Of a stretch of DNA of 63,118 nucleotides, positions 37,912-61,487 are shown piece by piece. The notes under the pieces were generated by a model. The model had not been told where the DNA came from and made no database searches. It saw only the letters and a program-made list of their open reading frames with translations. The stretch is from Oscillospiraceae bacterium (GTDB lineage Bacteria; Bacillota; Clostridia; Oscillospirales; Acutalibacteraceae), in NCBI GenBank assembly GCA_015065445.1, contig SVQF01000002.1, positions 1 through 63,118 of the forward strand, read 5' to 3'. The translations under genes and the position numbers were made by a program. Every line of letters starts with the position of its first letter. Positions within the stretch are counted from its first letter, which is position 1.

Positions 37912-37988
37912 TACTCGGTGAAAATTATTTCTATTTTTCACCGGGTTCTTTCATTTTTCACCGGGTTTATCAAATTTTCACCGGATTG
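37912..37988 (+). repeat. TTTTCACCGGGTT iterons
   Basis: Three direct copies of (T)TTTTCACCGG(G/A)TT start at 37934, 37954 and 37974 with an exact 20-bp period; an inverted copy (CTCGGTGAAAAT) is at 37913. The two-helical-turn period suggests binding of a protein multimer, as at replication iterons or recombinase arm sites. Confidence 0.65.
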
Positions 37989-38033
37989 AAAATGGTTGAA
38001 GTTTTTTACTTATTGTGATATCATAAAAGTCGA

Positions 38034-38150
38034 TACAAAGGGCTCTTTTTAGTTTGTAGTATTTATGTTCGTGGCTACAAACGTCGTGGTTATCATTCCC
38101 TTTGTATTTCCTTTCTGGTTCTCATCATCTCGGTGGTGAGAACTGTTTTT
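38034..38150 (+). other. Candidate small structured RNA
   Basis: Stem TACAAAGGG (38034)/CCCTTTGTA (38106) encloses GTTTGTAG/CTACAAAC; a terminator-like hairpin GTTCTCA/TGAGAAC with TGTTTTTTATT follows at 38118-38150. No ORF. Could be a short non-coding RNA or attenuator ahead of the 38216 operon. Confidence 0.5.
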
Positions 38151-38215
38151 TATTGAAAGCGTTATTTCGGTGTGTTATAATAAATACAAATAATCAGTAT
38201 GGTTGGTGATTAAAT

Positions 38216-38452
38216 ATGTCTAAACCGAATCAGAACAAGGATTCTGGATGGCTCGGTAATCTATATGACCTTGATGGTGATGGACACACTGATGCCGCTG
38301 AAACTGCTCTGATGTTTATGATTTTTGATGAAATGCAAAAAGAAGCGGAACAGCAGAAACAAGCACAACAGTCAAAAACATATGATCTTGACGAATGGGA
38401 CCTTAACCCCAACGAAGTTGACATGGATACTTTAGATATTAAAGGGATATAG
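38216..38452 (+). CDS. Small acidic protein with EF-hand-like loop
   Basis: 78 aa. YDLDGDGHTDAAE (residues 17-29) matches the D-x-D-G-D-G calcium-loop consensus of EF-hand and dockerin motifs. A hydrophobic helix (LMFMIFDEM) and a Gln-rich stretch follow, then an acidic end. A similar opening (WNGDGKKDIFDD) occurs in the 41332 gene, so these may be one family. It is followed 10 nt later by the 38463 gene. Confidence 0.75.
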   Translation: MSKPNQNKDSGWLGNLYDLDGDGHTDAAETALMFMIFDEMQKEAEQQKQAQQSKTYDLDEWDLNPNEVDMDTLDIKGI

Positions 38453-38462
38453 GAGACAACAA

Positions 38463-39233
38463 ATGCCAATAGTAATAATAATCATTGTTATAATCATCGC
38501 AGCTTTGGTTATGTATAGCGTTAACAGTTCATCGAAGACTAAGCAAGAACAAGCAGCTATAAATGAATTAAGAAAAAAGCAGCAAGAAGAGAAGATTGAA
38601 AACAGAAAGAATTATGTTGAATCGCTTGGGCCGAGTACAAGAATCATAATAAATGATGGCATTCATCTTTTTTTCAAGAATGACAAAGAGGAGTATTTTG
38701 GTCTGGATGAAACTGGTAAAACATATAGTTTCGATGGGTTACTGCACATAAACAAAGAAACTACGGGTATTTCTTTTGTACACAAAGACTCATACGATCT
38801 TTGCGTTGGCAAATGTATAGGAAATCCAGGTTCTGCTAATCCAATATCTTTAACATCAGTAAACCAGATTTACGCAGAAATGAAGCCTATTCTCCGCAAC
38901 AATCTTTATAAGATGCTTGAAGAGTATGGAGTTACTCCAACCCACGAATATGAATGGGATACGGATATATTTGGCTGCGACATAAACTCAAAACAGTTTT
39001 ATTTCACATACGGATGTCCGCAAGTTTATGATTTCTCTGCATTGCACAAAGTAACCATTGAGGATCTATCTCATAATAATTTGAGTGATGCTAATTATGT
39101 TATTCATGTTTATTTGTGGTTCGATGATAGTTTTTATGATGATTTTCCGTATATTGATTTATACTTCGATTACAAGGATGCCACTTTCAATAGTCTTCTT
39201 GCAATGTTTAAAGGAATAAAAAACCGGCAATAA
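38463..39233 (+). CDS. N-terminally membrane-anchored hypothetical protein
   Basis: 256 aa. A membrane helix at residues 2-20 (PIVIIIIVIIIAALVMYSV) is followed by a charged coiled coil (KTKQEQAAINELRKKQQEEK) and a soluble domain of about 200 residues with no recognised family. AGGAGA is placed before the ATG. Probably in an operon with the 38216 gene; terminator at 39244. Confidence 0.75.
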   Translation: MPIVIIIIVIIIAALVMYSVNSSSKTKQEQAAINELRKKQQEEKIENRKNYVESLGPSTRIIINDGIHLFFKNDKEEYFGLDETGKTYSFDGLLHINKETTGISFVHKDSYDLCVGKCIGNPGSANPISLTSVNQIYAEMKPILRNNLYKMLEEYGVTPTHEYEWDTDIFGCDINSKQFYFTYGCPQVYDFSALHKVTIEDLSHNNLSDANYVIHVYLWFDDSFYDDFPYIDLYFDYKDATFNSLLAMFKGIKNRQ

Positions 39234-39243
39234 TAGCAGTGTT

Positions 39244-39279
39244 CCCCATAACCTTATCGTAGGTTATGGGGCTTTTTTC
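39244..39279 (+). terminator. Terminator after the 38463 gene
   Basis: Stem CCCCATAACC/GGTTATGGGG with an 8-nt loop and a T run. Confidence 0.9.
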
Positions 39280-39345
39280 CGAAAAGAATGTGTTGTTGTA
39301 TGATAGTATCCTACTATCTCACAACTTCGGCCGAATTCGGGCAAA

Positions 39346-39890
39346 AGTAGTGTGATGATATGAAGAGTATCACACTACTACACTACTTCCCGGCTTTTTG
39401 CAAAAAAGTAGTACGATGGTATCAGATGATATGACAACTTCTCACAACTACCGGCGATTTTGCAAAAAGTAGTACGATGGTATCAGATGATATGACAACT
39501 TCTCACAACTACCAGCAAATTTGCAAAAAGTAGTATGATGATATTATACTATCACACTACTTAAAACAACTACCCCCGATAAATGGGCAAAATAGGGCCA
39601 AATACCGGGGATAGTATCTATATAATATGATATCATCCGGCCAAATCGGCCCAGAATCGGACGAAGTAGTATGATGATATGTAGAGTATGACACTTCTAC
39701 ACTACTTCCGGCCTTTTTGAAAAAAGTAGTGTTATGATATGACACTATCATACTACTACCCTCAGAACCGGGCGAAGTAGTACGATGATATGTAGAGTAT
39801 CATACTACTACACTACTTCCGGCAAAATTCGGCAAAAATCGCAGAAGGATATGAAGTAGTGTCATATCATCATACTACTACACAACTAAA
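39346..39890. repeat. Array of long AGTAGT palindromes, ~61-bp period
   Basis: AGTAGT(G/A)(T/C)GATGATAT units begin at 39346, 39407, 39468, 39529, 39665, 39725, 39776 and 39855. The first four are exactly 61 bp apart. Many units are palindromes of about 34 bp (AGTAGTGTGAT at 39346 pairs with ATCACACTACT near 39369), separated by GC-rich links such as CCGGC..TTTTGCAAA. No ORF or promoter is seen inside. It has the look of a multi-site protein-binding region (centromere, origin or assembly site); function unknown. Confidence 0.8.
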
Positions 39891-40057
39891 AAAGCACCGC
39901 AGCTGGCACTGCGATGCTCACCGAGAGGGAGGCCGTGAATCTCCTCTCAACAAGGCAATCCATACTACTCACCAGACGGCTAAATCGGTTTGAGTGAAGG
40001 GCACTGTGCCACTCGCTATAATCCACTCCGCGTCGCACTTGGACCTTGCCTTGTTGC
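39888..40057 (-). ncRNA. Candidate structured non-coding RNA, ~170 nt
   Basis: Read on the minus strand from about 40057. An 11-bp closing stem pairs CAACAAGGCAA (near 40056) with TTGCCTTGTTG (near 39948). Inside is GAGTG-GGCAC/GTGCC-CACTC; after it come a hairpin GAGAGG..CCTCTC-type and a final terminator GCATCGCAG/CTGCGGTGC with a T run ending near 39887. A canonical promoter lies upstream. No ORF of note. No known class recognised. Confidence 0.65.
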
Positions 40058-40063
40058 TCCTTT

Positions 40064-40092
40064 ACATTAGCAGAAAAACAAGTGGTCGTCAA
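40064..40092 (-). promoter_or_regulatory. Promoter of the minus-strand RNA
   Basis: On the minus strand TTGACG (40092-40087), 17-bp spacer, TAATGT (40069-40064). Transcription would start near 40057. Confidence 0.7.
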
Positions 40093-40225
40093 TGGGGTAC
40101 AGTAGTAAAGTCCAAAATACGGGACATAGAAAATCTGTTCTATTTACAAGTTCCTTTTTTCGTGATATTGTGTTCTCGGATGGGAAATAAAACTCGTTTA
40201 TACTAATTAAAAAGGAGAGATAAAA

Positions 40226-41050
40226 ATGACAGTTCCCGGACCTAAAATGTTAAGTGAAGAGAAAGCCTTAGAAATGCTTAATGCAATTATGCAGAGCGAT
40301 GTTGATGCCTGCTACAAGGAAGCAATCCTGTCCCTTGCCAACGAAAACGGCGAGATTCAGGTTGAGGATACGTATGAAATATCCGCGAGACTCGCATTCT
40401 GTAATCCAAAAGAAACGCTTCCCGCAATTGTAAGTGAGTTCGTATCGCTTGCATTTCTTGACGAAATTGAGAATGATAATGATGCAGCAATGGTGGACCT
40501 GGGCTCTTTATATTATACCGGCAGAATCGGTGAGCAGAATTACACTGAGGCAATAAAATATTACAAAATGGCAGATGCCTGCGGAAACCTTATCGCGTCT
40601 GAAAACCTGGGTTACTGCTACTACTACGGCAGAGATGTCGAGGTTGACTACAAGGCCGCATACCACTATTTCATCAAGCCCGCTCTTGCAGGAAGGCTTG
40701 AATCGATGTATAAAATCGGCGATATGTACGCCAAAGGACTCTATGTAAACCAGGATGAAGGAATGGCCTTTACTCTCTATGAAAAGGCTTATCAGAGCAT
40801 CGATGATGGTTGTGATGTAGTCGGTGACATTTGCCTTCGTATGGGAAACTGCTTCTATTACGGAACTGGTTGTGAAAGAGATATCCAGACAGCGCTGTTT
40901 TTCTATCAACGTTCCGAACTTTTCTATTACACACAGCTTAAGAATGGCGACTTTTTCAAGAGAAAGATGCTGGATGGCGTTATTGAAAAAATCGAAAAGA
41001 TTCGCGAAGAGTTGAAAAATGAAATAGAACCAGTTGATTTTTATGACTGA
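40226..41050 (+). CDS. Sel1-repeat protein
   Basis: 274 aa. After an N-terminal helical region (to about 80), Sel1-type repeats run from about 88 to 245: AAMVDLGSLYYTGRIGEQNYTEAIKYYKMAD, ASENLGYCYYYGRDVEVDYKAAYHYF, MYKIGDMYAKGLYVNQDEGMAFTLYEKA, LRMGNCFYYGTGCERDIQTALFFYQRS. These fold into a TPR-like solenoid for protein-protein contacts. It leads an operon of small genes (41043, 41181, 41332, 41742). Homologous repeats accompany many effector or immunity loci; the partner is unknown. Confidence 0.9.
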   Translation: MTVPGPKMLSEEKALEMLNAIMQSDVDACYKEAILSLANENGEIQVEDTYEISARLAFCNPKETLPAIVSEFVSLAFLDEIENDNDAAMVDLGSLYYTGRIGEQNYTEAIKYYKMADACGNLIASENLGYCYYYGRDVEVDYKAAYHYFIKPALAGRLESMYKIGDMYAKGLYVNQDEGMAFTLYEKAYQSIDDGCDVVGDICLRMGNCFYYGTGCERDIQTALFFYQRSELFYYTQLKNGDFFKRKMLDGVIEKIEKIREELKNEIEPVDFYD

Positions 41051-41171
41051 TTCTGAACGCTTACAAACAATTGACTTAATAAACGGTACCTCGCCGGAAG
41101 AAGATGTTGTATGGGCGTTGAACTACCTGCTCAACCTTCCGGACGAGGACGACCCGCCACTATTCGCGTGA
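41043..41171 (+). CDS. 42-aa acidic protein
   Basis: The ATG overlaps the end of the Sel1 gene (ATGACTGA). The product begins MTDSERLQTIDLINGTSPEE and ends LPDEDDPPLFA. No family recognised. Tight overlap supports translation. Confidence 0.6.
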   Translation: MTDSERLQTIDLINGTSPEEDVVWALNYLLNLPDEDDPPLFA

Positions 41172-41180
41172 GGTGGTTGT

Positions 41181-41321
41181 ATGATTATTATTAAAGGACT
41201 GATTTGGTTGCTGATGTTGCCATTTAAGCTGCTATTCTGGTGGGTGCCGAAGGGCAACGACAGTTATGAAGAGTCAGACGAAGAATACCTGTTCTGGAAG
41301 GACCAGGGCCACGACTGGTAA
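41181..41321 (+). CDS. 46-aa single-helix membrane protein
   Basis: Starts 10 nt after the previous stop with GAGGTGG before it. One hydrophobic helix (IIIKGLIWLLMLPFKLLFWW) followed by an acidic, aromatic tail (YEESDEEYLFW). Likely a small membrane protein of the same operon. Confidence 0.65.
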   Translation: MIIIKGLIWLLMLPFKLLFWWVPKGNDSYEESDEEYLFWKDQGHDW

Positions 41322-41331
41322 GGAGATTAAT

Positions 41332-41703
41332 ATGGCATTTAATGATTGGAACGGAGATGGCAAGAAGGACATCTTCGACGATATGATTGAATATCAGATT
41401 TATAAGGAAACTATGGGCGAAAGCGATGACGATTTTTCTTACCGTAGGCAGCGCAAAAGACACAAAGCTGAGAATCCTCAGTTTATTACTACGGTGTTTT
41501 CTGACGATTCAAAGAAGGACTATTCAAACCCACCCAGTTCAGGAGCAACGATCCTTGCGTCCCTTATTGTTTGTGTGCTTTGCTTTGGAGCTATAGCGTT
41601 ATGTGTAGCCTCTGATATTGGTTCGTTTGGTATGGCATTACTTCTCTTTGGTGCGGTAGGCTTGAGCGTTCTTGTGCTAAGGGGATTCGGTGTCATGCGA
41701 TAG
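41332..41703 (+). CDS. EF-hand-like small membrane protein
   Basis: 123 aa from the ATG at 41332 (AAGGAGATTAAT upstream). FNDWNGDGKKDIFDDMIEYQIY (residues 3-24) resembles a calcium-binding loop and the start of the 38216 protein. A charged middle precedes two membrane helices (about 68-92 and 97-118). Function unknown. Confidence 0.8.
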   Translation: MAFNDWNGDGKKDIFDDMIEYQIYKETMGESDDDFSYRRQRKRHKAENPQFITTVFSDDSKKDYSNPPSSGATILASLIVCVLCFGAIALCVASDIGSFGMALLLFGAVGLSVLVLRGFGVMR

Positions 41704-41741
41704 GGCGACAAAGATAAAAAACATGAGAAAGAGTGACGAAT

Positions 41742-42020
41742 ATGGATATAAAGTGTCCACACTGTAATAGAACGATAACAACGGCACAGCAAAAGGCTAT
41801 TTATCCCACACCAATTGTGATGCCTTGCCCTTACTGCAATAAGGAAGTCGATGTTGCTGAAGCACATCATAAGCATTGGGATCATATAAGGGCTGCAACA
41901 AAACATCCTCTGTGTCCCAGATGCAATACTGATAATTCTTACGTTATTCGCGTTAATGGACTTTTCAAAACCACACCTATGTGGAAGTGCCGTTCATGCG
42001 GATACAGATGGCGATATTAG
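41742..42020 (+). CDS. Small zinc-ribbon protein
   Basis: 92 aa from the ATG at 41742. Three CxxC pairs or sets: CPHCNRTI, CPYCNKEV, then CPRCNTDN..CRSCGYRWRY, indicating two zinc ribbons. The C-terminal ribbon resembles nucleic-acid-binding Zn ribbons. Last of the small-gene operon before the DUF262 promoter. Confidence 0.8.
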   Translation: MDIKCPHCNRTITTAQQKAIYPTPIVMPCPYCNKEVDVAEAHHKHWDHIRAATKHPLCPRCNTDNSYVIRVNGLFKTTPMWKCRSCGYRWRY

Positions 42021-42044
42021 TAAAAAAGTTAGCGATAAGAAAGT

Positions 42045-42072
42045 TTGAAAAATTAGAAAAATGTATTATAAT
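42045..42072 (+). promoter_or_regulatory. Promoter of the DUF262 gene
   Basis: TTGAAA, 16-bp spacer, TATAAT, 45 bp before the ATG. Confidence 0.7.
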
Positions 42073-42117
42073 AGTTTATAGGTATGGATAATTACAGAAG
42101 TGTCAGGAGGAACGAAA

Positions 42118-43755
42118 ATGGGAATGCCAACGGGATTAAATCCTACAATCAACGAGATAGTCAAGTGTATTACAGACGGCGAATATCGCATTCCTCGTTT
42201 TCAGAGGGATTTTGTATGGGACATAAAAAAGTCTGCAGCACTCTTGGATAGCATTTTCAAAGGATTTCCTATTAGTTCTGTTATCTTATGGAAAACAAAG
42301 AAAGAACTATCCGAAATTCGGAATCTTGGAGGTATAGAAATACCTGGAAGGGACACTGGGAGATACACCTCGTATATTATTGATGGACAGCAAAGGCTTA
42401 CCAGCTTGTATTTTGCACTTAAAGGCCTTCAAACGAGCTCGGGTTCCGACTTTTCAGAAATGTGTATATCCCTTGTTGCACAGCCAGGTGAACAGTTGGT
42501 TTTTGACTCTATACCAAAGGGGTCAACACCTGATGATTATGTGACTATTAAATCCCTATTCGATGCTACCGCGCTAAACGGACCGCATGCTGATAAAAGA
42601 TTAAAATACTATCAAACTTTGCTTCAATATACAATTTCAGTTATTGAAATTGACGATGAAAATCTGGAGCTAGATGAAGTTATAGAAATCTTTGAACGTC
42701 TTAATCTTGGCGGCAAGAAACTGAATCTATTCTCGATTATTGCTGCTCGTAGCTATATTGCTCCAGAAAACGGTAAAAAGGGTTTCGATCTTGCCAAACA
42801 ATTTGACTCGTTCAATAAGATTCTGATTAAGAATAATTACGGCAAAATCAGCGATTCTACATTTCTCCAAGCAATAGCTGCCTGTCTAATAGAAAAAGTT
42901 AACAAGTCAGACATATTAAACAATCTTAATAGCGAGCTTATTGAAAATAATTATATTTCTATTGAAAAGGCAATTCTCGCAGCAATTGAGCATCTAAAAA
43001 ATACGAACTATGGTGTTCTGGTTGCAAATCTACTACCGTATGAGCGTATCCTCGTTGCGTTTACATATTTTCATTATAAAATGGGCAATAATCATATCGG
43101 CCAACAACAGGAGCGGTATTTAGTGGATTTTTTCTGGCGATGTGTTTTAAGTAAACGTTACAATAATGCTGCAACCACAAATCTCAACGCGGATATCGTG
43201 AAAATAAAGAAAATCGTAAACAACGAGACGCCAAATCAGGAGCCCATCATTCTATCTCCAAAAACCATATATGAAAATGGTAGATTTGTTATGTCGTCTG
43301 CGTATGTCATTGGAATGTTGTGTTTAATGGCGCAGGCACCTCCCCAGTCCTTTGCCGTAGGAAGAACAATTAACATTACAAACGACTCGGTATCCAATTC
43401 ATCGAAAAAACAATTTCATCATTTCTTTCCGATGAAATCTCTGGTTGTTTTAGCGAATCCTGAATATCAATCAATAGTTAACAATGTAGTAAATATTGTT
43501 TTTATGGATGCAATTACAAATGATCAAATAAGCAACCGAAATCCTAGTGATTATATTACTGAGTTCGCACAATCAAATCCTAACTTTACTGAGGCCTTGG
43601 AGTCCCACTATATTTCTCTCCATGGTTATGGTATAAAAGATAACGATTTCTTTTCGTTTATCAATGCCAGAAGTAGATCGCTATATAATAAGTTGTGCCA
43701 GCTTATTATTCCAAGCAAAGCCGACACAATAACCGATATATCGGCTATTGTATAG
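42118..43755 (+). CDS. DUF262 (GmrSD-type) protein with HNH-like C-terminus
   Basis: 545 aa from the ATG at 42118 (AGGAGGAACGAAA upstream). The N-terminal ParB/GmrS-like domain shows YRIPRFQRDFVWD (23-35) and the DGQQR motif (89-93). A helical middle (about 200-400) follows. Near residue 430 KKQFHHFFPMKSL resembles the His-His pair of an HNH nuclease. Proteins with this layout include GmrSD-type enzymes that cleave modified DNA and other phage-defence nucleases. It stands immediately before a SAM-type riboswitch and a methyltransferase gene, consistent with a modification-linked defence role (inference). Confidence 0.88.
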   Translation: MGMPTGLNPTINEIVKCITDGEYRIPRFQRDFVWDIKKSAALLDSIFKGFPISSVILWKTKKELSEIRNLGGIEIPGRDTGRYTSYIIDGQQRLTSLYFALKGLQTSSGSDFSEMCISLVAQPGEQLVFDSIPKGSTPDDYVTIKSLFDATALNGPHADKRLKYYQTLLQYTISVIEIDDENLELDEVIEIFERLNLGGKKLNLFSIIAARSYIAPENGKKGFDLAKQFDSFNKILIKNNYGKISDSTFLQAIAACLIEKVNKSDILNNLNSELIENNYISIEKAILAAIEHLKNTNYGVLVANLLPYERILVAFTYFHYKMGNNHIGQQQERYLVDFFWRCVLSKRYNNAATTNLNADIVKIKKIVNNETPNQEPIILSPKTIYENGRFVMSSAYVIGMLCLMAQAPPQSFAVGRTINITNDSVSNSSKKQFHHFFPMKSLVVLANPEYQSIVNNVVNIVFMDAITNDQISNRNPSDYITEFAQSNPNFTEALESHYISLHGYGIKDNDFFSFINARSRSLYNKLCQLIIPSKADTITDISAIV

Positions 43756-43780
43756 GTTTTACACGTAAACCAAACTATAT

Positions 43781-43905
43781 TACCTATTAAGAGCGTGCGA
43801 GAGACCGGCTCGACGACCACGCAGCAACCTACCAAGAGGCAAGGTGCTAATGCCGGAGCAATAGGTTACACCGAGAACCTATCGCTATTGATAGGTTCTT
43901 TTTAT
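43781..43905 (+). promoter_or_regulatory. SAM-I/SAM-IV-type riboswitch with terminator switch
   Basis: P1 pairs ACCTATT (43782-43788) with AATAGGT (43860-43866). P2 pairs GCGTG (43793) with CACGC (43818), with a kink-turn-like GAGAGACC/GACGAC. Loop CCGGC (43805-43809) can form the pseudoknot with GCCGG (43852-43856). GCAACC and AAGGTGCTAATGCC match the conserved SAM-I core. After P1 a terminator GAACCTAT/ATAGGTTC with T run (43875-43905) competes with an antiterminator that uses the P1 3' strand (AATAGGTT with AACCTAT). Ligand binding should turn the gene off. P4 appears absent, as in SAM-I/IV variants. Confidence 0.85.
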
Positions 43906-43933
43906 TACATTATAAACAAAAAGGAGAATTACA

Positions 43934-44221
43934 ATGAAGAAGCTTATTGATTTGACAAAAGGAGAAAAATGGGTGTTCGTCAGACTTAACAACGGGAAGT
44001 CAATGTCGGATTTCTTAAAACAAGCAGAACGTGAAGGTTTTGTAATTAATTGTCACCTGCCGACTCAATGTAAATGTGATAAAGTAATGGTTTTGCACAG
44101 CGATTACACCATATCTTATCTTCATGGGTGGGCGCTAACTACAGTTTATGGGTGTACAAAGGCTAAAAAAGTCAACTTTGATGAATATATGAACGGGCGT
44201 TATGATTCCTTTTGTTTTTAA
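43934..44221 (+). CDS. Riboswitch-controlled 95-aa protein
   Basis: 95 aa, unrecognised. It begins MKKLIDLTKGEKWVFVRLNN and has four Cys (CHLPTQCKC, YGCTK) with a VMVLHSDYTISYLHGWALTT centre; no signal or membrane segment. AAGGAG is well placed. It is the only gene between the SAM-type riboswitch and the next terminator at 44226, so it is the direct target of the switch. A link to methyl-donor metabolism or to the neighbouring methyltransferase is inference. Confidence 0.8.
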   Translation: MKKLIDLTKGEKWVFVRLNNGKSMSDFLKQAEREGFVINCHLPTQCKCDKVMVLHSDYTISYLHGWALTTVYGCTKAKKVNFDEYMNGRYDSFCF

Positions 44222-44225
44222 ACAC

Positions 44226-44254
44226 AAAAAATATGGATATTTTTGCTTTTTTTG
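44226..44254 (+). terminator. Terminator after the 95-aa gene
   Basis: Stem AAAATAT/ATATTTT with GG loop region and a T run of seven. Confidence 0.65.
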
Positions 44255-44283
44255 TTGCTATTGTTCGCGATTGAGTATATAAT
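44255..44283 (+). promoter_or_regulatory. Promoter of the methyltransferase gene
   Basis: TTGCTA, 17-bp spacer, TATAAT, 24 bp before the ATG at 44307. The methyltransferase is therefore not necessarily under the riboswitch. Confidence 0.7.
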
Positions 44284-44306
44284 GCATAATAAAGGAGGCG
44301 ATAGTG

Positions 44307-47300
44307 ATGAAATACATTTCAGCAAAAGAAGCCGCTGAAAAATGGAGCTTGACCAAACGTAGAGTGCTCGTATTGTGTAAAGAAGGACGCATTTCTGGCG
44401 CAGAGCTTGTTGGGTCAACTTGGGTAATACCTGAGGATGCATTGAAGCCTGAAGACGGCAGAGCATTAAGATATCAAAAAGAGGGATCGACATCGTCTGA
44501 TGTCCCCCCGCTAAAATCCTCTGTGAAAGCAAAAGGTCATACACCACAGTATAAAATGCACAAATACTTTGCAAGAAGACCGTATAACGTTTTTAGTCAT
44601 TTAATCAAGCATTATACATCTAAAGGCGATATAATTCTTGACTGTTTTTGCGGCGGTGGGGTAACCATATTTGAATCAGCGCATCTTGGGCGAAAGCCTA
44701 TCGGCGTCGACATCAATCCGCTCGCAGCATTTATCACGAGAATGCAATTGTTTAACGGAGAAGTTTCTGAACTAAATGATTGCTATAGACGGTTTCTTTT
44801 GACTATTGAAAAAAAGTATTCAGAGTGGTATCAGGTCATATTTGATGACGACAAAGGAATTGCCTCTTGGACAGAATGGGCATACACAGTACAATGTCCA
44901 GATTGTGGAGAAACTATTGTGTTATTGGAGGAAAACAAGGCCTCCAATGGCGTTTATCGTTGCCCTAATTCTGGTTGTGTTAATCACAATGTTGGTGTAA
45001 AAAGGATTCTTTGTAGGCCGTTGGGCAGCGAGCCAATAAGAGTTAAATATACATCCTCCGTAACAAATAAACAATATACACGCGACGCGTCAATTGAAAA
45101 CTTTCCAGCTTTTAAAAAAATTAATTTTTCTGAAATTATCGCTCAGCAACCATATAAACCAGAATTCCAAATACCAGAGAATTGGGACAGACAATATGAG
45201 GATAGATTGCAAGAAAAAGGAATAGTCGAATATAGCGACTTTTTTACCGAAAGAAACTTTGCCCTGAATTGCTTGATATTTAACGAGATTATGAAATTGA
45301 AGGGAACGACAGCTTCCGAATTAAACGAATATCTTTATTTCCTTTTCAGTTCATCGCTTCGTTACACAAATAAAATGACACGCGTTACGGATAATTGGGA
45401 AGGTGGGAAACCCACAGCAATGGACAAACACGCTTTCTGGCTGCCGAATCAGTACGTTGAAACCAACATAATTGACGTGCTAAAACAAAGGGCGAAAGCA
45501 ATAATCCGGGGCTGTGAGTATTCTGCTGAAAGCATCCCAAAAGATGTTGTTGAAGTAACCAGCTTTGAAGACATAAAACTTCGAAATAGTTATATGATCT
45601 TAAATCAAGATGCTTCAAACTTACCGATACCTAGCAATGCGGTTGATGTAGTAATTACCGATCCCCCTTACGGGAGCAACGTCCAATACGCAGAATTGTC
45701 CACCATTTGGAACGCTTGGTACGCAATATACAAAGGCTTGGATAATTATATATATAAAGATAAAGAAGCTGTCATGAATCGAAAAAGAAACTTCAAGGGC
45801 TCAAAGACAGTGGATGATTATGAGGAACTACTCTGTGCTGTTTACACAGAATGTGCGCGAACTCTTAAACCAAATGGATATCTTGTGTTCACTTTTAACA
45901 ACAAAAATCTTAAAGTGTGGATTGCTATGCTTAAGGCGGTTGCGCGTGCAGGGTTCTACTTGCCAGAGGACGGAGTTATATTCCAGGACTATATAGATTC
46001 CTACAAAAACACAGCTCACTTACGTTTTTCAGGCAATATTCAAGGGGATTTTATATACTCGTTTAGAAAAGGCTCTATAGCCATTGAAAATACTCCGGAA
46101 AAAGGGCTTTCTGAGATTATAGATGAATCCATTGACGAAACGGTTTCTAAACTTTTTAAGCGGCGCAAAAAGCATTCAACACCTGATTTGTATCAAAAAG
46201 TGCTCGCTGATATGACACGTAAGTTAATGCAATATATTCTTTGGTGTCTTTCGTCGGGCAAAGAAATGGAAGATATATCATCTTTTTCAAATGACTATCT
46301 TGAACAGCGGCTAAAACAACTATTGGTCTGCAATAATGGGGTGTGGGAAAAAAAGCCAAGCGTATTCTCGCCACTAACGCAAGGCTACAACTCACCAGAG
46401 TTAAAAGAATTCATAACAAAATTAGAAAACAAGTATAAACTAGAGAAAGCCCAAGAGAAGTATCATAATCTAGTTAATTTCTCCACAAATAAAAGTGTTC
46501 CATATCATCAATGGTTTTTATACCGAGAAGGTTTCTCAAACGAATTAATAACAGAACTCATTGAGATGTCAGATGCTGCGCCTGGAGAATGCATTATTGA
46601 TCCGTTTTGCGGTTCAGGAACAACGAATGTAGTTGCGTCTTTGAACGGATACGATACGCTAGGGCTTGATGTAAACCCAATGTCAGCTTTTATCACAAAT
46701 GCTAAAATTGCTCATTATTCAAAAGAAGATTTGCAAAAAGCATTGGAATTTAAAGAAAGCGCTATAGTCAGTGAATCCTATTCTATTAAACCGGGCTTTG
46801 AAGATGTTCACAAATACTTTTCAGATAATAATTATTATGCTTTGTTAAGAATAAAAACTTTTATTGATTCGTTGACGGATAGCAAAGCAAAAGATTTGTT
46901 GTTTGTTGCTTATCTTTCAATTATTATGGATTGCTCGAATAGGAAAAGAGACGGTAATGGTCTAAAAGTTCGTACGACGAAAGTTGTTAGTGTTCCAGAA
47001 TACTTCGCCGAAAAGGTTGAAATGATCGTTCAAGATATTAAGGAACAGCAGTCAGACATCGGTGTAAAAGGTTACGGAATCTATGATACGGCTTACAACC
47101 TGAACTTGAATTATAATAACAAGTGGGGAGATATAAGTGCTGGAGCAATCATATTTTCACCGCCTTATGCAAACTCTTTTGATTACTTTGAATCCTACAA
47201 ATTAGAACTTGTTCTGGGAGAATTTGCATCCGGTGTTAGAGGAATTAATGATCTAAGAAAATATGCTGTTCGTTCATTTATTGGGGCAGAAAAGCAAGAT

Positions 47301-47690
47301 TCCTGCGACAGGTATGTTGATTTAATTGCCAGAGAAATTGAAAATGCAATCCCCGAAAAGGAAAAAGAGACTGGAAAAACAGATAGCAGAACAAGAAAAG
47401 TGCCGAATATGATTAGAGGTTATTTCTCCGATATGCGGGAAGTAATTCGCCAATGCTCGAAATGCTTATCTAAAGGAAAGAAAACCTATATTGTAGTTGA
47501 TCAATCTGCTTATGTTGGTAAAATTGTTCCTACTGATTTGTTATTAGCGTATTTTGCAGAGTTAGAAGGGTTCAAGGTAGGAAAAGTAATTGAGTGTAGA
47601 AACGCAAGAACCTCTACTCAACAATTAATAAAATACCCTTATCTTAAAACAACTTTGCGAGAGAGTATCGTCGAATTAATTAAAGCTTAG
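44307..47690 (+). CDS. Two-domain DNA methyltransferase with N-terminal HTH and Zn ribbon
   Basis: 1127 aa from the ATG at 44307 (a GTG lies just before it; AGGAGG upstream). Residues 1-55 are an excisionase/MerR-type helix-turn-helix (YISAKEAAEKWSLTKRRVLVLCKEGRISGA). The first methyltransferase core has SAM motif ILDCFCGGGVTIFESA (about 110-125), a zinc ribbon near 195-230 (CPDCGETI..CPNSGC) and catalytic DPPYGS near 450. The second has IIDPFCGSGTTNVVAS near 760 and SPPYANSFDYF near 950. Either the two domains modify different strands or sites, or the second (SPPY) is divergent. Typical of large N4/N6-type methylases of restriction loci. The HTH could serve autoregulation. Confidence 0.88.
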   Translation: MKYISAKEAAEKWSLTKRRVLVLCKEGRISGAELVGSTWVIPEDALKPEDGRALRYQKEGSTSSDVPPLKSSVKAKGHTPQYKMHKYFARRPYNVFSHLIKHYTSKGDIILDCFCGGGVTIFESAHLGRKPIGVDINPLAAFITRMQLFNGEVSELNDCYRRFLLTIEKKYSEWYQVIFDDDKGIASWTEWAYTVQCPDCGETIVLLEENKASNGVYRCPNSGCVNHNVGVKRILCRPLGSEPIRVKYTSSVTNKQYTRDASIENFPAFKKINFSEIIAQQPYKPEFQIPENWDRQYEDRLQEKGIVEYSDFFTERNFALNCLIFNEIMKLKGTTASELNEYLYFLFSSSLRYTNKMTRVTDNWEGGKPTAMDKHAFWLPNQYVETNIIDVLKQRAKAIIRGCEYSAESIPKDVVEVTSFEDIKLRNSYMILNQDASNLPIPSNAVDVVITDPPYGSNVQYAELSTIWNAWYAIYKGLDNYIYKDKEAVMNRKRNFKGSKTVDDYEELLCAVYTECARTLKPNGYLVFTFNNKNLKVWIAMLKAVARAGFYLPEDGVIFQDYIDSYKNTAHLRFSGNIQGDFIYSFRKGSIAIENTPEKGLSEIIDESIDETVSKLFKRRKKHSTPDLYQKVLADMTRKLMQYILWCLSSGKEMEDISSFSNDYLEQRLKQLLVCNNGVWEKKPSVFSPLTQGYNSPELKEFITKLENKYKLEKAQEKYHNLVNFSTNKSVPYHQWFLYREGFSNELITELIEMSDAAPGECIIDPFCGSGTTNVVASLNGYDTLGLDVNPMSAFITNAKIAHYSKEDLQKALEFKESAIVSESYSIKPGFEDVHKYFSDNNYYALLRIKTFIDSLTDSKAKDLLFVAYLSIIMDCSNRKRDGNGLKVRTTKVVSVPEYFAEKVEMIVQDIKEQQSDIGVKGYGIYDTAYNLNLNYNNKWGDISAGAIIFSPPYANSFDYFESYKLELVLGEFASGVRGINDLRKYAVRSFIGAEKQDSCDRYVDLIAREIENAIPEKEKETGKTDSRTRKVPNMIRGYFSDMREVIRQCSKCLSKGKKTYIVVDQSAYVGKIVPTDLLLAYFAELEGFKVGKVIECRNARTSTQQLIKYPYLKTTLRESIVELIKA

Positions 47691-47721
47691 AAAATTATAG
47701 AAAGATAAAACGGAGGTTGAA

Positions 47722-47898
47722 ATGTCCACCGACTTGTATAATAGAGAATGGGAGTGTCTTTCATACAAAGAGAAGAACCAAGAACTATATTTGAGGCAAA
47801 AGAAGTTGTTAGAAACATTCCGGGATCACAGAGCTATCACACAGGAACAATATGAAAGTAGTTTGCATGATTTAACAGAAAAAATGCATTCCGATTAA
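47722..47898 (+). CDS. 58-aa helical protein
   Basis: Starts 31 nt after the methyltransferase with ACGGAGG well placed. Sequence begins MSTDLYNREWECLSYKEKNQ; overall charged and helical, ending LTEKMHSD. No family recognised. It ends at a terminator and is probably co-transcribed with the methyltransferase. Confidence 0.7.
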   Translation: MSTDLYNREWECLSYKEKNQELYLRQKKLLETFRDHRAITQEQYESSLHDLTEKMHSD

Positions 47899-47902
47899 AC
47901 TT

Positions 47903-47930
47903 AAAGCCACCATAGAGGTGGCTTTTTGTT
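47903..47930 (+). terminator. Terminator of the methyltransferase operon
   Basis: Stem AAAGCCAC(C)/(G)GTGGCTTT with T run. Confidence 0.9.
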
Positions 47931-47984
47931 ATACAAAGTGAAAAAAGAGAGCCTATCAACAACTCTCTTCTTTCTAATGAATCT

Positions 47985-50837
47985 CTAATATGCTTTATAC
48001 TGGGTGAAATTCCTTTTTAAAGAATCAAGAGGACACGTTTCAATTTCTGATGACTTTTCAAGTTCTTCCTCTATACGTTCTTTGCCTTCCGGGAGAAGAG
48101 CAATAACATCTTTCGGTGACGCTGCATCAAAAATATCGCTCCAAGCAAGTAAGTGTTTCTTAATATAATTGTACTGATTATATACTGTTGTTCGTGAAGT
48201 CCAAATGTCCTCAAAAGTTAGAGTGGTATCAAATCTTGCATTAAGAGCTTCAAGCACAATTCTCTTGTTTGCCTCGTTTAACACTTCAATATTAGGATAC
48301 GTTTCTCTTAAGAACTGGACTCTCTCTATGGATTCGTTTTCACCACGAGTTCCAAAGTGTTTACAAATATATAGAGAATATGATAACTCAAAACGTGTAA
48401 TATAACCCAAGGCCGCAATTACACGCAGCGCCATGCGATACGGAAATTTTGGTATTCTTGTAATTGCATCAAGTTCGTAATACTTTAACATTTGTTCCCG
48501 GAAGATATCAACATAAAGATCCCTGTACTCGAACATTGCTTTACCAATGTCTGTAACATAAAACTTCATGTCTTTTTCTTGCAAGGCACCAATTTTTACA
48601 CAATGAGACACGCTATTGTGGTCCACTTTTCCATTGTGCTCTAACTGAATTGCTTCTCTTGGTAGTCCTATTGCAAAATCCTTGTACTTTTCAAGTGTTG
48701 GAATAACAAGATTGTAATAATAAGCGTCGATGTTATAATCTCCAACTGTTCTGAACGTTCTTTTTGTACCAGACTTTCTCGATGCTCGAGTAACTATAAA
48801 TTCCTTAGCAATATTGCTTGGGTCCTTGTTAACCTCTGCTATTCTTAAGCTTAAGCTTTCAGAAAAGTCATCGATATCTAACTGTTCAGACAACTCGACA
48901 ATTATTGGTGCATCGGGGTCGATGTGCCCATGCGCCTTTCCTTTTGCTGCTTTCAAGTTCAGTTTATCAATATAATCGGCAAGAATGCGGTCCTGGTCTC
49001 TTAGTGCCTGTATTACAGAGTGAAGGGTACTGAATTCTTTCGGATCAATATCCTCGAATTTCGCAACATTGTCCGAAATAACCATAGGCACAATAATATA
49101 GGAAACCTTGTCTGGTTTATTCTTGTCTTTCCTTAAAGACCTACCAACGGCCTGAATAATATCAACAATTGAATTCTTCGGTTCCGCAAAATATACGGCA
49201 TCAATAATCGGTACATCCACGCCCTCAGTTAAACAACGCGCATTGGAAATTACACCATATGGCGCGCTAATGAATTCATCAAAGATTTCCTTTCTGCTTC
49301 CTGCAGACATAGTACCATTAATATGACCAGAGTAGACATCGGCGATCTCAATGTCATCAGAAATGTCGGCGATTACTTCCGATACCGGCGTCCCGGCGGT
49401 CGGATTAATAAATTGTTTTGCTTGTTCGATGTTTCTATGGTAAGTAATGACTTTATTAATGCCGATGTCGTCCATCGTTTTCGCAAGTAAAACTTGTTTG
49501 AAAAGAGTTTGAGCGTCAACTTGTCTGTCGCCAAGACTTATAATCTGATTGTCTTGAATTATTTTCTTAAGCTCGCTTTCATTCATGCAACACAGAATAA
49601 TTTTGTAATCGCTTATGATGCCCTGTTCTATAGCAGCTCTAAAGGGAAGCGCGGAAAAGGTTGTGCCATATTGTTCTTCATTGTCCATTGAAAAAACTTC
49701 GTAGTTAAACTGTTTTGCTCTTCCAACAATACGCGGATTGACAAATCTTTCTGTCGCAGTCATAAACAGTCGCCTTTTACAAGGAACGAATTCATCGTTC
49801 ATACCATAGATGAACATATCCGAGTCCTTGTTTCCAGCGGTTCTGTGTGCCTCATCAAAGAACGCAATATCAAAATTGAAATCTTTTATATTGGATAACG
49901 CTAATACAATTGCATCAAGGGATTGATAAGTTGAAAAAATGACCTTGTCTTTACTTGAGGAATACTCGATAAATTCACGTATTTTCTGTGGGTCAGTAGT
50001 TACAGGAACATCAATATAAGATATATCGGCTGCAAAATCATCTTCATCATCTGAATTAGCAACGGTTTCATCACTACAAACACAAAGATAGTTAAAAGGG
50101 CTGTTGGCTTGTGGAACCCATGACTCAAGAGTCTGCTTAATTAAAGCTAAATTGGGTGCAACAAACAAGACTACACCACATTTCAATGCTTCTTTAATCC
50201 ACAACGCAGTCAAAGTTTTTCCAGTACCACAGGCAGCCAACAGTTTACCTCTTGACATTGTCTCAAAGCCTTGGACAACCTCTTCAATCATTTTTTCTTG
50301 ATGCTTTAATGGTTTGTATTTTTCTTTTTGAACAGTACTATCACCGGTGTTAGCAAAGTTATACAACCATGAGTAAAAGGCCTCATCAAGCGAAGTGAGG
50401 CTGTCTCTTAAGATTGTAAACTGGTCTTTTTTCTTATACGACTGCTTAGGAAGCGTGTAACAATTGGCGAAAATACAGCGCTCGCTTGCATGTTCTGATT
50501 CTGCCCAAAAAGATGTAAGATCGTCATAGGAAGGCGCTTCCTGAGCGCTTCTAAATTTAACTTGGTAGGCAACAGATGAACCATCTTCTCTAATAAATAA
50601 TCCATCAACACCACTATCTTTTTTCTCGAGTTTATACGCGGTCTTATACTCCTCCGGAATATCTGGTCCCATGAACAACTCACGAATTTGATATATGTCT
50701 TTGAAGTAGGTAAAATAAGCATAAGCAAATTGTTCAAAAGCGTCGCCTTTGTCTTTGGTAATACTTATAGATTCGATGTCTTTCTCAACATCGTCCCAGC
50801 AAGTGTACCGATTTTTAAAAATAGGATTAAAATGCAT
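47985..50837 (-). CDS. Restriction-type nuclease fused to SF2 helicase
   Basis: 950 aa. The N-terminal Mrr/PD-(D/E)xK-like nuclease shows E35 (GDAFEQFAYAYF), D78 (SGVDGLFI) and Q92-x-K94 (YQVKF). An SF2 helicase core follows: Walker A AACGTGKTLTAL near 200, DEAH in FFDEAHRTAG near 317, MTATE, and motif VI QAVGRSLRKD near 560. A C-terminal helical region of about 300 residues (FGTRGENESIERVQFL..) may read DNA. It resembles restriction-associated helicases (Type III/ISP-like). Divergent promoter at 50870. It sits tail-to-tail with the methyltransferase operon, so the two can form a restriction-modification-like pair. Confidence 0.88.
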   Translation of the reverse strand: MHFNPIFKNRYTCWDDVEKDIESISITKDKGDAFEQFAYAYFTYFKDIYQIRELFMGPDIPEEYKTAYKLEKKDSGVDGLFIREDGSSVAYQVKFRSAQEAPSYDDLTSFWAESEHASERCIFANCYTLPKQSYKKKDQFTILRDSLTSLDEAFYSWLYNFANTGDSTVQKEKYKPLKHQEKMIEEVVQGFETMSRGKLLAACGTGKTLTALWIKEALKCGVVLFVAPNLALIKQTLESWVPQANSPFNYLCVCSDETVANSDDEDDFAADISYIDVPVTTDPQKIREFIEYSSSKDKVIFSTYQSLDAIVLALSNIKDFNFDIAFFDEAHRTAGNKDSDMFIYGMNDEFVPCKRRLFMTATERFVNPRIVGRAKQFNYEVFSMDNEEQYGTTFSALPFRAAIEQGIISDYKIILCCMNESELKKIIQDNQIISLGDRQVDAQTLFKQVLLAKTMDDIGINKVITYHRNIEQAKQFINPTAGTPVSEVIADISDDIEIADVYSGHINGTMSAGSRKEIFDEFISAPYGVISNARCLTEGVDVPIIDAVYFAEPKNSIVDIIQAVGRSLRKDKNKPDKVSYIIVPMVISDNVAKFEDIDPKEFSTLHSVIQALRDQDRILADYIDKLNLKAAKGKAHGHIDPDAPIIVELSEQLDIDDFSESLSLRIAEVNKDPSNIAKEFIVTRASRKSGTKRTFRTVGDYNIDAYYYNLVIPTLEKYKDFAIGLPREAIQLEHNGKVDHNSVSHCVKIGALQEKDMKFYVTDIGKAMFEYRDLYVDIFREQMLKYYELDAITRIPKFPYRMALRVIAALGYITRFELSYSLYICKHFGTRGENESIERVQFLRETYPNIEVLNEANKRIVLEALNARFDTTLTFEDIWTSRTTVYNQYNYIKKHLLAWSDIFDAASPKDVIALLPEGKERIEEELEKSSEIETCPLDSLKRNFTQYKAY

Positions 50838-53773: not shown

Positions 53774-55345
53774 TTAAACCCTTATATTTACTACACTTCC
53801 ATCCTGAAATACAAAATCAATATCGTTTTTGCCAACCACCGCTCTTTGCAACAAATGGCAAAGCATTTTTTGGTCAAATTCACCAATGCCATTTTCGCTG
53901 TTTTGTGCGTTTTTAAGGGCGTTATAGTAGCATACCAAGCGAGCTCGCGTCTCTCTCTTCTGTGCAAGTTCAAGGCCAGCGTTTTCAAGTGCTGTGCCAA
54001 CCGAATCATACTCGGCTGCCATGGCGCTGTATCGCTCGTCGTAGTGTTCAACTTTACCGGTGCGGGCATTTTTCTGAACCAGGTTCTCTATCTCCTTGGT
54101 AACCACGCCCAACTTGTCCTGCAGAGATAACAGATTCGCTTCGTCAGCAGAGAGGTCGTCGTAGAGGGCTATAGCCATCTCTACGGTTTCCAGAGCTGCT
54201 CGGCTCGACACCTTCTGGTTAAGCGCCTCCAAGAACATCTCTTTGAATCGTTCTTCGGTAAACCTTGCCGAGTTGCATTTGTGTTCCCCTTTATAGCAGT
54301 CGTTGCAGCGGTAAATCTCGGTGCGGTACTTGTCGTTGCTGTGATGTACCTTCCTACCGAAGTATCCGCCACAGTCCCCGCACACCAGAAAGCGTGTTAA
54401 GTAGTCGCTGCTTTTCCTGGATCTACTCCCGGAGTTGCGGGCAGCCATCTCGGCCTGGACAATATCGAAAATCTCTCTTGATACGATACCGTCGTGGCTG
54501 TTTTCAATGTAGTACTGCTGGCGCTGTCCTTCGTTAACCACCTTCTTGTGGTCCAGGTAGTTCGGTATGAAACTCTTCTGAAGCAGCGCCCGGCCGCAGT
54601 ATTTCTCATTCTGGAGGATGGACGCAACGGTACTGGGGTGCCACCGTTCTTTCTTTGACGGGCTTGGCACCCCTTTCTCGGTAAGTTCCCGGGCTATAAG
54701 CGAAGGGGTTGAGCCCTTTAAGAACTCGTCGTAGATAAAACGGACAACCTTGGCCTCCTCTTCGACGATACGCGGCTTGCCGTCGGGGCCTTTCTCGTAG
54801 CCCAGGAAATGCTTATATGGCATTGAAAATCGCCCTTCCATAAATGCGTACTTGATACCGGCCTTAACGTTCTGTGAAATCGAGTGTGATTCTTCCTGGG
54901 CCAGTGAGGAGTAAATTGTAATGAGGAAGTCCCCGGAGCCATCCAGCGCTCTTACGTTTTCCTTTTCCCAGAGGCAGTCAACATTGGTTCGTCTGAACAC
55001 GTCAAGCGCGGTCAGCATGTCTCTTGTGTTACGGCCAAACCGGGAGATGGACTTACAAAGGACGAAGTCAATCTTACCGCTCTCGACGTCCTCCATCAGC
55101 TGTTTGAAGCCCTTTCTGTTTTTTGTGCTCGTACCCGTAATTCCGTCGTCAGCGTAAACACCTACGAACTTCCACCCGGGGTGGCTCTCGATGTGGTTTG
55201 TGTAGTAACGAACCTGGGCTTCAAAGCTGTTTTCCTGCTCATCCTTCTCCGACGAGACCCTGGCATAGGCGGCAACCCGGAGTTCCCGTTTGATTGCGCT
55301 TATACCCGTCTGTATCGTCGGAGGAATAATTGTAACTGTACCCAT
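53774..55345 (-). CDS. Large serine recombinase, second of a tandem pair
   Basis: 523 aa. The resolvase domain (about 18-165) has the catalytic Ser in AAYARVSSEKDEQ and the helix RFGRNTRDML. A recombinase domain (about 180-280, FLGYEKGPDGKPRIVEEEAKVVRFIYDEFL) and a zinc ribbon (CGDCGGYFGRK..YRCNDC) follow, then a coiled-coil (about 380-470) as in phage integrases that control direction. Its start lies 1 nt after the stop of the other recombinase. Confidence 0.95.
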   Translation of the reverse strand: MGTVTIIPPTIQTGISAIKRELRVAAYARVSSEKDEQENSFEAQVRYYTNHIESHPGWKFVGVYADDGITGTSTKNRKGFKQLMEDVESGKIDFVLCKSISRFGRNTRDMLTALDVFRRTNVDCLWEKENVRALDGSGDFLITIYSSLAQEESHSISQNVKAGIKYAFMEGRFSMPYKHFLGYEKGPDGKPRIVEEEAKVVRFIYDEFLKGSTPSLIARELTEKGVPSPSKKERWHPSTVASILQNEKYCGRALLQKSFIPNYLDHKKVVNEGQRQQYYIENSHDGIVSREIFDIVQAEMAARNSGSRSRKSSDYLTRFLVCGDCGGYFGRKVHHSNDKYRTEIYRCNDCYKGEHKCNSARFTEERFKEMFLEALNQKVSSRAALETVEMAIALYDDLSADEANLLSLQDKLGVVTKEIENLVQKNARTGKVEHYDERYSAMAAEYDSVGTALENAGLELAQKRETRARLVCYYNALKNAQNSENGIGEFDQKMLCHLLQRAVVGKNDIDFVFQDGSVVNIRV

Positions 55346-55346
55346 A

Positions 55347-56645
55347 TTATTTAACTGCCCCTTTCAGTTTTTTCTCTCTTGCCATGGCCCTCATCTCGGG
55401 CGTCCAACTCTGTGAGCGGCTTCTATCTTCCCAATGGCACTCGACTTCTTGACCATTCATCAGGTGAAACACCAGACGATTGTCGTTATGTGCTTCTATA
55501 TAGGAAACCTTTGAAGTAAAAGCCTTCTCGTCAAATGACCCAAGCCCGAGGACCTTGGCACTTGTTTCCATAAGCACCGACTCCGGTATGGCCTTTGAAG
55601 CGCAGTACTTCTTGCCTTTCTGGCTATAGGTTATGCACTGCCACTTATCCCCATACCGGGTTGCTCTCCGGCGATAGTTCTTACCGCACACAGCGCAGCG
55701 TATCTTCCCGGTGAAGGGATAAGTAGGTTGGGTGCGCTCGCCGATCCCCATATCGCTTCTCCGCTGGTCAATCTGCTTTTGAACTCTCTCGAACAGTTCC
55801 CGGTTCACGATAGGAGGCATACATTCGGTAGCATAGTACTTTGCAAGTTCGCCCTTGTTGAGAACGAGCTTTTTCTCGAGGTGGTTATTCACGTAGGACT
55901 TCTGGAGAAGTGCATCCCCCATATAGCGCTCGTTACGAAGCATATCGACCACGTGCTTTGCATTCCACTCGCCACCGCGCAAGGTGGGCACCTTTTTCGC
56001 AGTAAGATACTTTGCGATGGCGTTTGCCGATTCGCCGGTGGCATACATCTCAAACATCTCGCGGACCACCTTCGCCTGCGCTTCGTTAATCGTGACTTTT
56101 CCACGTTCAACATCGTAGCCAAACATAAAGCGGAAGCTGACATCGTGGCCTCTCTCATATTCGTGCTTGATACGCCACTTGACGTTCTCGCTAACTGACT
56201 CGCTCTCGGCCTGGGCGTAGGCTGCCATAAGCGTCAGCACGAATTCGCCATCGGCCTTGAGTGTGTTGATGTTCTGTTCCTCGAAATAAACGGCTATGCC
56301 CAGGTTCTTAAGTTCCCGGGTGTACTTAAGCGTGGTTCTGGTGTTGCGGGCAAATCTTGATACTGCTTTGGTAATAACCATGTCAATCTTACCAGCGCGG
56401 CAGTCGGCAATCATCCGTTGGAACTCCGGACGGGTGTCCTTGGTCCCGGTGAAGGGCTTCTCGTTATAAACCTCGACAAACTGCCAGTCTGGATTACTGT
56501 TAATCAAGTTGACATAGTGCGTAACCTGGGCGTTGAGGCTGTGAAGCATACCCTCATCCTCCATAGAAACGCGGCAGTAAGCAGCAACGCGCAGTCGGTG
56601 CTTTTCTACCGGCTTTTTCGGTAAAATGATAACTTCTTTGTCCAC
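55347..56645 (-). CDS. Large serine recombinase, first of a tandem pair
   Basis: 432 aa from the GTG at 56645. An upstream GTG (56669) lies before the predicted transcription start, and AAGGGGTGA fits the later start. Resolvase domain with AAYCRVSMEDEGML and RFARNTRTTL, recombinase domain (FGYDVERGKVTINEAQAKVVREMF), and zinc ribbon CAVCGKNYRRR. The C-terminus is short and lacks the long coiled coil of its partner. Both should act on the same prophage or element ends; whether they form heteromers is unknown. Confidence 0.94.
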   Translation of the reverse strand: MDKEVIILPKKPVEKHRLRVAAYCRVSMEDEGMLHSLNAQVTHYVNLINSNPDWQFVEVYNEKPFTGTKDTRPEFQRMIADCRAGKIDMVITKAVSRFARNTRTTLKYTRELKNLGIAVYFEEQNINTLKADGEFVLTLMAAYAQAESESVSENVKWRIKHEYERGHDVSFRFMFGYDVERGKVTINEAQAKVVREMFEMYATGESANAIAKYLTAKKVPTLRGGEWNAKHVVDMLRNERYMGDALLQKSYVNNHLEKKLVLNKGELAKYYATECMPPIVNRELFERVQKQIDQRRSDMGIGERTQPTYPFTGKIRCAVCGKNYRRRATRYGDKWQCITYSQKGKKYCASKAIPESVLMETSAKVLGLGSFDEKAFTSKVSYIEAHNDNRLVFHLMNGQEVECHWEDRSRSQSWTPEMRAMAREKKLKGAVK

Positions 56646-56669
56646 AAAATCACCCCTTTTTGTAGTCAC

Positions 56670-58203: not shown

Positions 58204-58538
58204 TATTCTTCCTCCTTGGTAAAATTAAAATTGAACTCAGCGACGCAGGCCTCAATGAGAAGGTGCATCTCGAGTTCAGAAATGTAGATACCTTTTTCAG
58301 AAAGGATTGAAGAGATGTTCTCGCAGGCTTTAGCAAACTTCTCCGGACCTTCAAGGTCCTGGTAGAGCTGCTCCACCGCTTTGACGCAAGTCTCAACAAC
58401 GGCTTTCTTGGTCTTGTCCTCAGCGAGTTTCTTATACACCACCCTTACCTGGCTTGCTAAAAAGCCGGCAATCGCTGTTAGAACAGCATAGATAATGGTG
58501 TTCCCGTATTCGGAAATAAAATTTGAAAGAATTGACAT
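58203..58538 (-). CDS. Phage holin, LLH-type
   Basis: 111 aa. One N-terminal membrane helix (about 12-32, NTIIYAVLTAIAGFLASQVRVVY) and a charged helical tail (KKAVVETCVKAVEQLYQDLEGPEKF..), the layout of LL-H-type holins. It lies directly before the endolysin in a lysis cassette. Confidence 0.88.
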   Translation of the reverse strand: MSILSNFISEYGNTIIYAVLTAIAGFLASQVRVVYKKLAEDKTKKAVVETCVKAVEQLYQDLEGPEKFAKACENISSILSEKGIYISELEMHLLIEACVAEFNFNFTKEEE

Positions 58539-58541
58539 AGA

Positions 58542-58871: not shown

Positions 58872-58998
58872 CCTTTTCTACCTCCTTCAATAAGTCATTC
58901 AGCGCCTGTTCAGCCCCAAGAATCGCATTAAGCTGGGCCAAGGCCTGCTCCTTCTGCTTTGCGATTTCCTGAAGCTTTTTCTCAATTGTTTCCTTCAT
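58858..58998 (-). CDS. 46-aa coiled-coil phage protein
   Basis: MKETIEKKLQEIAKQKEQAL then AQLNAILGAEQALNDL to DADN. Fully helical. It overlaps the tail-tip gene by 17 nt upstream and the next gene by 14 nt, fitting the compact prophage operon. Confidence 0.75.
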   Translation of the reverse strand: MKETIEKKLQEIAKQKEQALAQLNAILGAEQALNDLLKEVEKDADN

Positions 58999-61483: not shown

Positions 61484-61487
61484 CTCC

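Follow-up and report, generated by a model that had tools for sequence, protein, structure and literature searches.

Riboswitches of the SAM-I class (S-box, RF00162) combine the helices P1, P2/P2b with an internal loop, P3 and P4 with a pseudoknot, a set of core bases and a terminator/antiterminator platform. P4 helps SAM-I binding. Related members of the SAM clan alter this plan: SAM-I/IV aptamers lack PK-1 and keep P4, and SAM-IV aptamers lack P4 and have gained P5 and PK-2 (as defined in the available portion of PMC6890682). In C. difficile, SAM-I riboswitches lie upstream of methionine and SAM genes only, according to the accessible part of PMC11477304. Still other SAM-I variants do not accept SAM but bind spermidine, and several of their SAM-contact positions are mutated (PMC10853860, available excerpts). 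A search of the open-licence literature, covering best-ranked titles and the starts of abstracts and thus weak evidence of absence, recognised neither a SAM-I aptamer without P4 nor a SAM riboswitch over a phage gene.

We analysed a 63,118-nucleotide stretch of an Oscillospiraceae bacterium contig (SVQF01000002.1; hereafter the window), in which a SAM-clan riboswitch had been predicted. The Rfam search bore this out. Positions 43781-43867 of the forward strand matched the SAM model (RF00162) at 64.0 bits (E 1.4e-12; curated cut-off 44.4 bits), the best match of the SAM clan at this aptamer. The predicted P1 (43782-43787/43861-43866), P2 (43793-43797/43818-43822), P3 (43823-43833/43838-43848) and pseudoknot (43805-43808/43853-43856) were all present on this strand, as was P2b (43801-43803/43809-43811). 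The class originally assigned, SAM-I/IV, had to be revised, as RF01725 reached only 35.3 bits against a curated cut-off of 41.1.

The aptamer shares with SAM-I the helices P1, P2/P2b with its internal loop and P3, the pseudoknot, the core bases and the platform. It differs at the usual site of P4, where no helix is found between the pseudoknot and P1, and a four-base linker (43857-43860) stands instead; on inspection, the terminator hairpin comes right after P1. A further difference is its position before a small gene on accessory DNA. With SAM-I/IV (RF01725) and SAM-IV it has the SAM-clan core in common, but it carries PK-1 and lacks P4, and no P5 or PK-2 was seen by inspection. Because PK-1 is present and P4 absent, and judged against the definitions of SAM-I/IV and SAM-IV given in the available part of PMC6890682, the riboswitch reads as an unusually short SAM-I minus P4. 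As P4 is absent, we file it as a SAM-I variant and not as a plain member.

This assignment was supported by covariation. A covariance model, R1, was built from 22 aptamers including that of the window, which, as one of its building sequences, scored 92.6 bits under it. Across these 22 aligned aptamers, 96.1% of cells were paired, compared with 28-40% in slid controls, and 13 of 28 pairs had changed on both sides. Double-changed cells numbered 52 against 16.7 in shuffles, while further pair types showed no excess (25 against 23.2). All four pseudoknot pairs were 100% formed, three of them with double changes. P1, P2, P3 and the L2-J3/4 pseudoknot, as expected of a SAM-I aptamer, were all found with covariation.

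Downstream of the aptamer, pattern search and folding identified an intrinsic terminator (43873-43908, forward strand) with a stem at 43873-43900, folding at -15.3 kcal/mol, and a T-rich tail. A segment fold gave an antiterminator (43861-43882, forward strand) in which the 3' strand of P1 (43861-43867) pairs with the 5' strand of the terminator (43876-43882) over 7 bp (-6.1 kcal/mol). The two structures, predicted to be mutually exclusive, are both there and share strand 43876-43882, with the caveat that the length of the window helix taken alone is not beyond chance (13 of 50 mononucleotide shuffles reach 7 bp). Among 62 distinct leaders the antiterminator helix recurs in most relatives, with a mean of 8.4 against 6.4 by chance, and a terminator-like hairpin with a T-run occurs in 53. 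The hairpin and T-run test found no terminator in the other nine (L018, L051, L052, L060, L061, L063, L065, L067 and L070). Leaders L018 and L051 were possibly cut short by an early start-codon call. A single Ruminococcus-type group accounts for five of the nine; in place of the terminator, its leaders may carry a hairpin at the ribosome site. L007, L021 and L073 have a terminator, and no antiterminator beyond chance was seen in them. The window leader has a Shine-Dalgarno sequence, AAAGGAG (43920-43926, forward strand), and lacks the hairpin that possibly sequesters this site in many relatives.

From this layout we infer OFF logic and a low-SAM role for the cassette. When SAM is plentiful, the bound aptamer would hold P1 closed, which would let the terminator form and keep the gene off. 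When SAM is low, the 3' strand of P1 would pair with the 5' half of the terminator. With the antiterminator formed, transcription would enter the gene, and the 95-aa protein it encodes would be made only in SAM-poor cells.

A sigma-70-like site (at least 9 of 12 positions) lies directly upstream of 45 out of 61 leaders, against 7.5 expected from mononucleotide shuffles. At 7 of 12, the promoter match in the window is a weak one. The aptamer there begins 25 bases past the stop codon of a GmrSD/DUF262-type nuclease gene (42100-43755, forward strand; GmrSD_N 4.1e-28), and pattern search gives the methyltransferase gene that follows a promoter-like site of its own (44255-44283). In the window, part of the transcription of the 95-aa gene may come from read-through of the nuclease gene, and this would leave room for a local link to that nuclease.

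The controlled gene (43934-44221, forward strand; defined by its ORF, homologue search and AlphaFold) encodes the 95-aa protein P0001, with a predicted alpha/beta fold. The AlphaFold model is fairly confident (mean pLDDT 86.9). P0001 had no family match in Pfam, NCBIfam or PADLOC (the last at E 0.01), its only PHROGs match was phrog_18929 (0.0014), and no convincing PDB relative was found by sequence or fold. Of the original description as a Cys-containing 95-aa protein, the gene product stands, but conservation across the family does not extend to the cysteines. There is no general DNA-mimic signature because charge is mixed (pI quartiles of the family 5.2, 6.6 and 8.8). Some members are longer: L136 and L149 hold the family domain in two copies, L132 has an N-terminal extension and L142 a C-terminal one.

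In a sample of 300 genomes from the host's family, homologues were found in 21 with P0001 as query and in 25 with the family alignment A1, host included. Wider samples, which overlap with one another and with the family sample, gave 5 of 245 genomes for the order, 5 of 291 for the class and 1 of 299 for the phylum, the host again included in each. Four other genomes of the host genus were in the 300-genome sample, and none has a homologue. Judged from these searches, the family is patchy and centred on relatives of the host.

That homologues might sit behind SAM switches had been raised originally, and the relatives confirmed it. At the first 24 homologue loci (L004-L027), RF00162 matched above its cut-off directly upstream in 20; L020 fell just under it (43.8 bits), and no match was found upstream of the homologues at L015, L019 and L027. 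With R1, 29 of the 35 genome-contig loci showed an upstream aptamer, with L049, cut by the contig end, as a further case. All 15 viral-contig loci, among them several near-copies, showed one as well; some loci in both counts repeat one another or R1's own members. Even with filters off, R1 found no upstream aptamer at L038, L046, L050, L062 and L066. The 300-genome family sample provides a less selected test of this coupling. The R1 matches listed there, under stricter filters, comprised 44 at 73.6 bits or more, followed by 62.9 and lower. A homologue lay 67-123 bases downstream of 28 of these 44 short aptamers, and 28 of the 31 homologues had a short aptamer upstream, the remainder being one in G277 and two copies in G087. 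The protein family is tied to the short P4-less aptamer, and the pair behaves as one cassette. Near the homologue at L015, which has no SAM switch, a ZMP/ZTP riboswitch lies on the opposite strand (L015:555-636).

The small gene under a short SAM-I switch recurs in related bacteria and in one public phage genome record. This record, of Ruminococcus phage NatCom_28274 (PV036439.1), carries both the aptamer (106.8 bits) and the gene, oriented against most of the surrounding genes. The window cassette itself lies in an accessory region beside, perhaps inside, a prophage: reverse-strand genes for an endolysin, a tail protein, Dit and a tape measure protein (cut by the window end) occupy 57406-63118, and two tandem large serine recombinases (53774-55345 and 55347-56669; together 53774-56669) lie on the same strand. 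An IMG/VR record of 39,524 bases that holds the cassette is identical to window positions 37934-50218 across the 12,285 bases compared and has terminase and capsid genes. Matches to both were found in 5 of 11 viral records tested, the window's included; neither was found in the other six (L070-L075), whose viral nature is putative. In the protein tree, whose resolution is poor, five label changes suffice for the 12 viral rows, compared with 11.4 in shuffles, and one origin of the viral copies would be compatible with the well-supported branches. Some cassette copies look stably chromosomal, because some host loci have housekeeping-type neighbours and neighbours are common to four species (L046, L049, L054 and L055).

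In the host assembly (1.98 Mb, about 90% complete), RF00162 has one match, that of the window. No SAM switch was found within 1.5 kb on either side of the host metK, and metK genes of two genomes of the same genus, G293 and G149, have an ordinary P4-bearing SAM switch (82.5 and 74.9 bits). Within the assembly, from which about a tenth of the genome is possibly missing, no SAM-I switch besides the accessory one was found.

Our preferred reading is that SAM very probably represses the window gene, an accessory one, whose product would be made when SAM is short. The cassette is probably a horizontally moving unit of short aptamer, terminator platform and one small alpha/beta protein. This protein most likely serves its carrier, whether phage, prophage or host, during SAM/methionine shortage. 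A pared-down form of a common metabolite riboswitch would then control accessory genes in phages and bacterial chromosomes alike, raising the question of why a phage should read the SAM level of its host. Switch and gene as one cassette give a testable protein family, and the SAM-I minus P4 architecture becomes directly testable.

Other genes behind the same short aptamer bear on what the protein does. All 16 of the 44 short aptamers without a homologue in the 300-genome sample, L115 and L126 among them, were inspected. Five, each in a different genome (L153, L154, L155, L158 and L159), precede a second small-protein family of about 140 aa, which carries a GWG motif. Single loci hold metK (L161, recognised by eye), an MTA/SAH-deaminase-like amidohydrolase (L163; 4f0r at E 5e-61, best match 3lnp, an amidohydrolase), an N-formylglutamate-amidohydrolase-like protein (L156) and a longer protein ending in such a domain, with about 95 aa of extra N-terminal part (L165). 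Other small proteins follow at L162 and L164, and no intact gene was seen at L115, L126, L157 (contig end), L160 and L166. At L126 and L166 a Shine-Dalgarno sequence is followed by near-identical 11-codon frames (MQENKRVYKPP and MKENKRIYKPP), representing either a truncated gene or a short peptide that is conserved. At L148 (256-816), an HD_4-domain gene lies behind a short SAM aptamer.

We also checked 67 RF00162 matches in 33 genomes chosen for holding a homologue. Of the 27 scoring at least 73.7 bits, 25 precede metK (by eye), and L098 (contig end) and L100 were unassigned. Among the 40 with lower scores, 33 have a family match in the next 1.5 kb, L121 precedes metK, L148 precedes the HD-domain gene, and the last five are either broken or empty or sit at a contig end. 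Finding metK, the MTA/SAH-deaminase-like enzyme and the second small family behind the short aptamer supports SAM as ligand, the strongest genomic indication of a ligand that would still be SAM being the occurrence of a short aptamer in front of metK. On these grounds we infer that the window aptamer, too, binds SAM.

These same companions (metK, the deaminase-like enzyme and the two N-formylglutamate-amidohydrolase-like proteins) lend some weight to a more specific form of the preferred reading, in which the 95-aa protein is an economy factor that tunes a metabolic enzyme or aids methionine salvage in SAM-poor cells, to the benefit of phages and chromosomes alike. This is a reasonable though tentative proposal: the protein matches nothing in Pfam, no solved structure is convincingly related to it in sequence or fold, and its family is patchy (25 of 300 genomes).

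Less well supported is a second form, in which loss of SAM, for instance through its destruction by an infecting phage or when self-methylation fails, would call up the protein as a factor in defence or counter-defence, directed at restriction or methylation enzymes such as the neighbouring DUF262 nuclease. The flanking genes described originally are both in place, with the nuclease directly before the aptamer and a two-domain DNA methyltransferase with an N-terminal HTH after the gene (44304-47690, forward strand; N6_N4_Mtase 1.1e-39 in two stretches, HTH_17 0.0012). Beyond these lies a ResIII-type helicase with a weak Mrr-like N-terminal match (47985-50837, reverse strand). Methyltransferase genes are also close to the family gene in one phage group: in PV036439.1 a gene annotated as a DNA methyltransferase follows after one intervening gene, and in the related L077, where C5 and N6/N4 methyltransferases are the neighbours on one side, the intervening gene is a C5 methylase. 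SAM can moreover be depleted by a phage, as by the T3 SAMase (PMC8406200, in the portion available). Elsewhere, however, the neighbours differ. Besides the family itself, no neighbour cluster is common to more than 8 of 51 loci, and those eight are one viral group, so the loci do not support a general linkage to methyltransferase or DUF262 genes. The 79 neighbours at 24 host loci include a single protein with a match to a PADLOC methyltransferase model (E 1e-10), and no DNA methyltransferase appears in the 25 Pfam families listed, of 71. The protein itself has neither a PADLOC match at E 0.01 nor, given its mixed charge, a general DNA-mimic signature. We therefore regard this second form as unlikely. 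Of the role first proposed, a small SAM-OFF gene on accessory DNA stands, while restraint of the nuclease is unsupported as a general function because neighbours vary between loci. Similarly doubtful is the broader notion of a SAM-depletion sensor in clostridial phages and prophages, in which a minimal SAM-I riboswitch would drive a small effector of restriction, methylation or phage-phage conflict once SAM is drained by a rival or by the phage itself. If this were true, a metabolite riboswitch would set off defence or counter-defence. Before the DUF262 gene, at 41733-42020, a zinc-ribbon protein shows very weak similarity (phrog_6422 0.0032; Pfam 0.039) to Lar, a restriction-alleviation protein.

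Nine aptamer positions, which we take to be SAM contacts (C44, A46, U57, G58, U7, G11, U88, A87 and A45), were compared across 69 distinct aligned aptamers. C44, A46, U57 and G58 were identical in all 69. U7 and G11 were kept in 68, the exception being L155, a row cut at wrong coordinates; U88 was kept in 68, A87 in 67 and A45 in 65. Departures occur at A87 and U88 in L070, whose aptamer has a degenerate P1 (69.9 bits under R1), and at A87 in L165. The first A of the GCAACC core (A45, taken as an adenine contact) is G in L005, L006, L056 and L063. All nine positions are intact in the window aptamer, which therefore lacks the changed contact bases that mark the spermidine variants. That the short aptamer senses spermidine or a SAM by-product rather than SAM is improbable: such variants do exist and, like the present switches, are SAM-I-derived OFF switches with terminators in Gram-positive bacteria, and P4 is lost across the whole group with A45 replaced by G in 4 of 69, but the variants have several mutated contacts and nearby polyamine genes (PMC10853860, as far as the available text extends), whereas the short aptamers keep nearly all of the presumed contact bases, have lost P4 instead and include one before metK. 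Elsewhere in the window, positions 39343-39544 show direct self-similarity at a 61-base offset (84.8% over 145 columns, L002 against the window).
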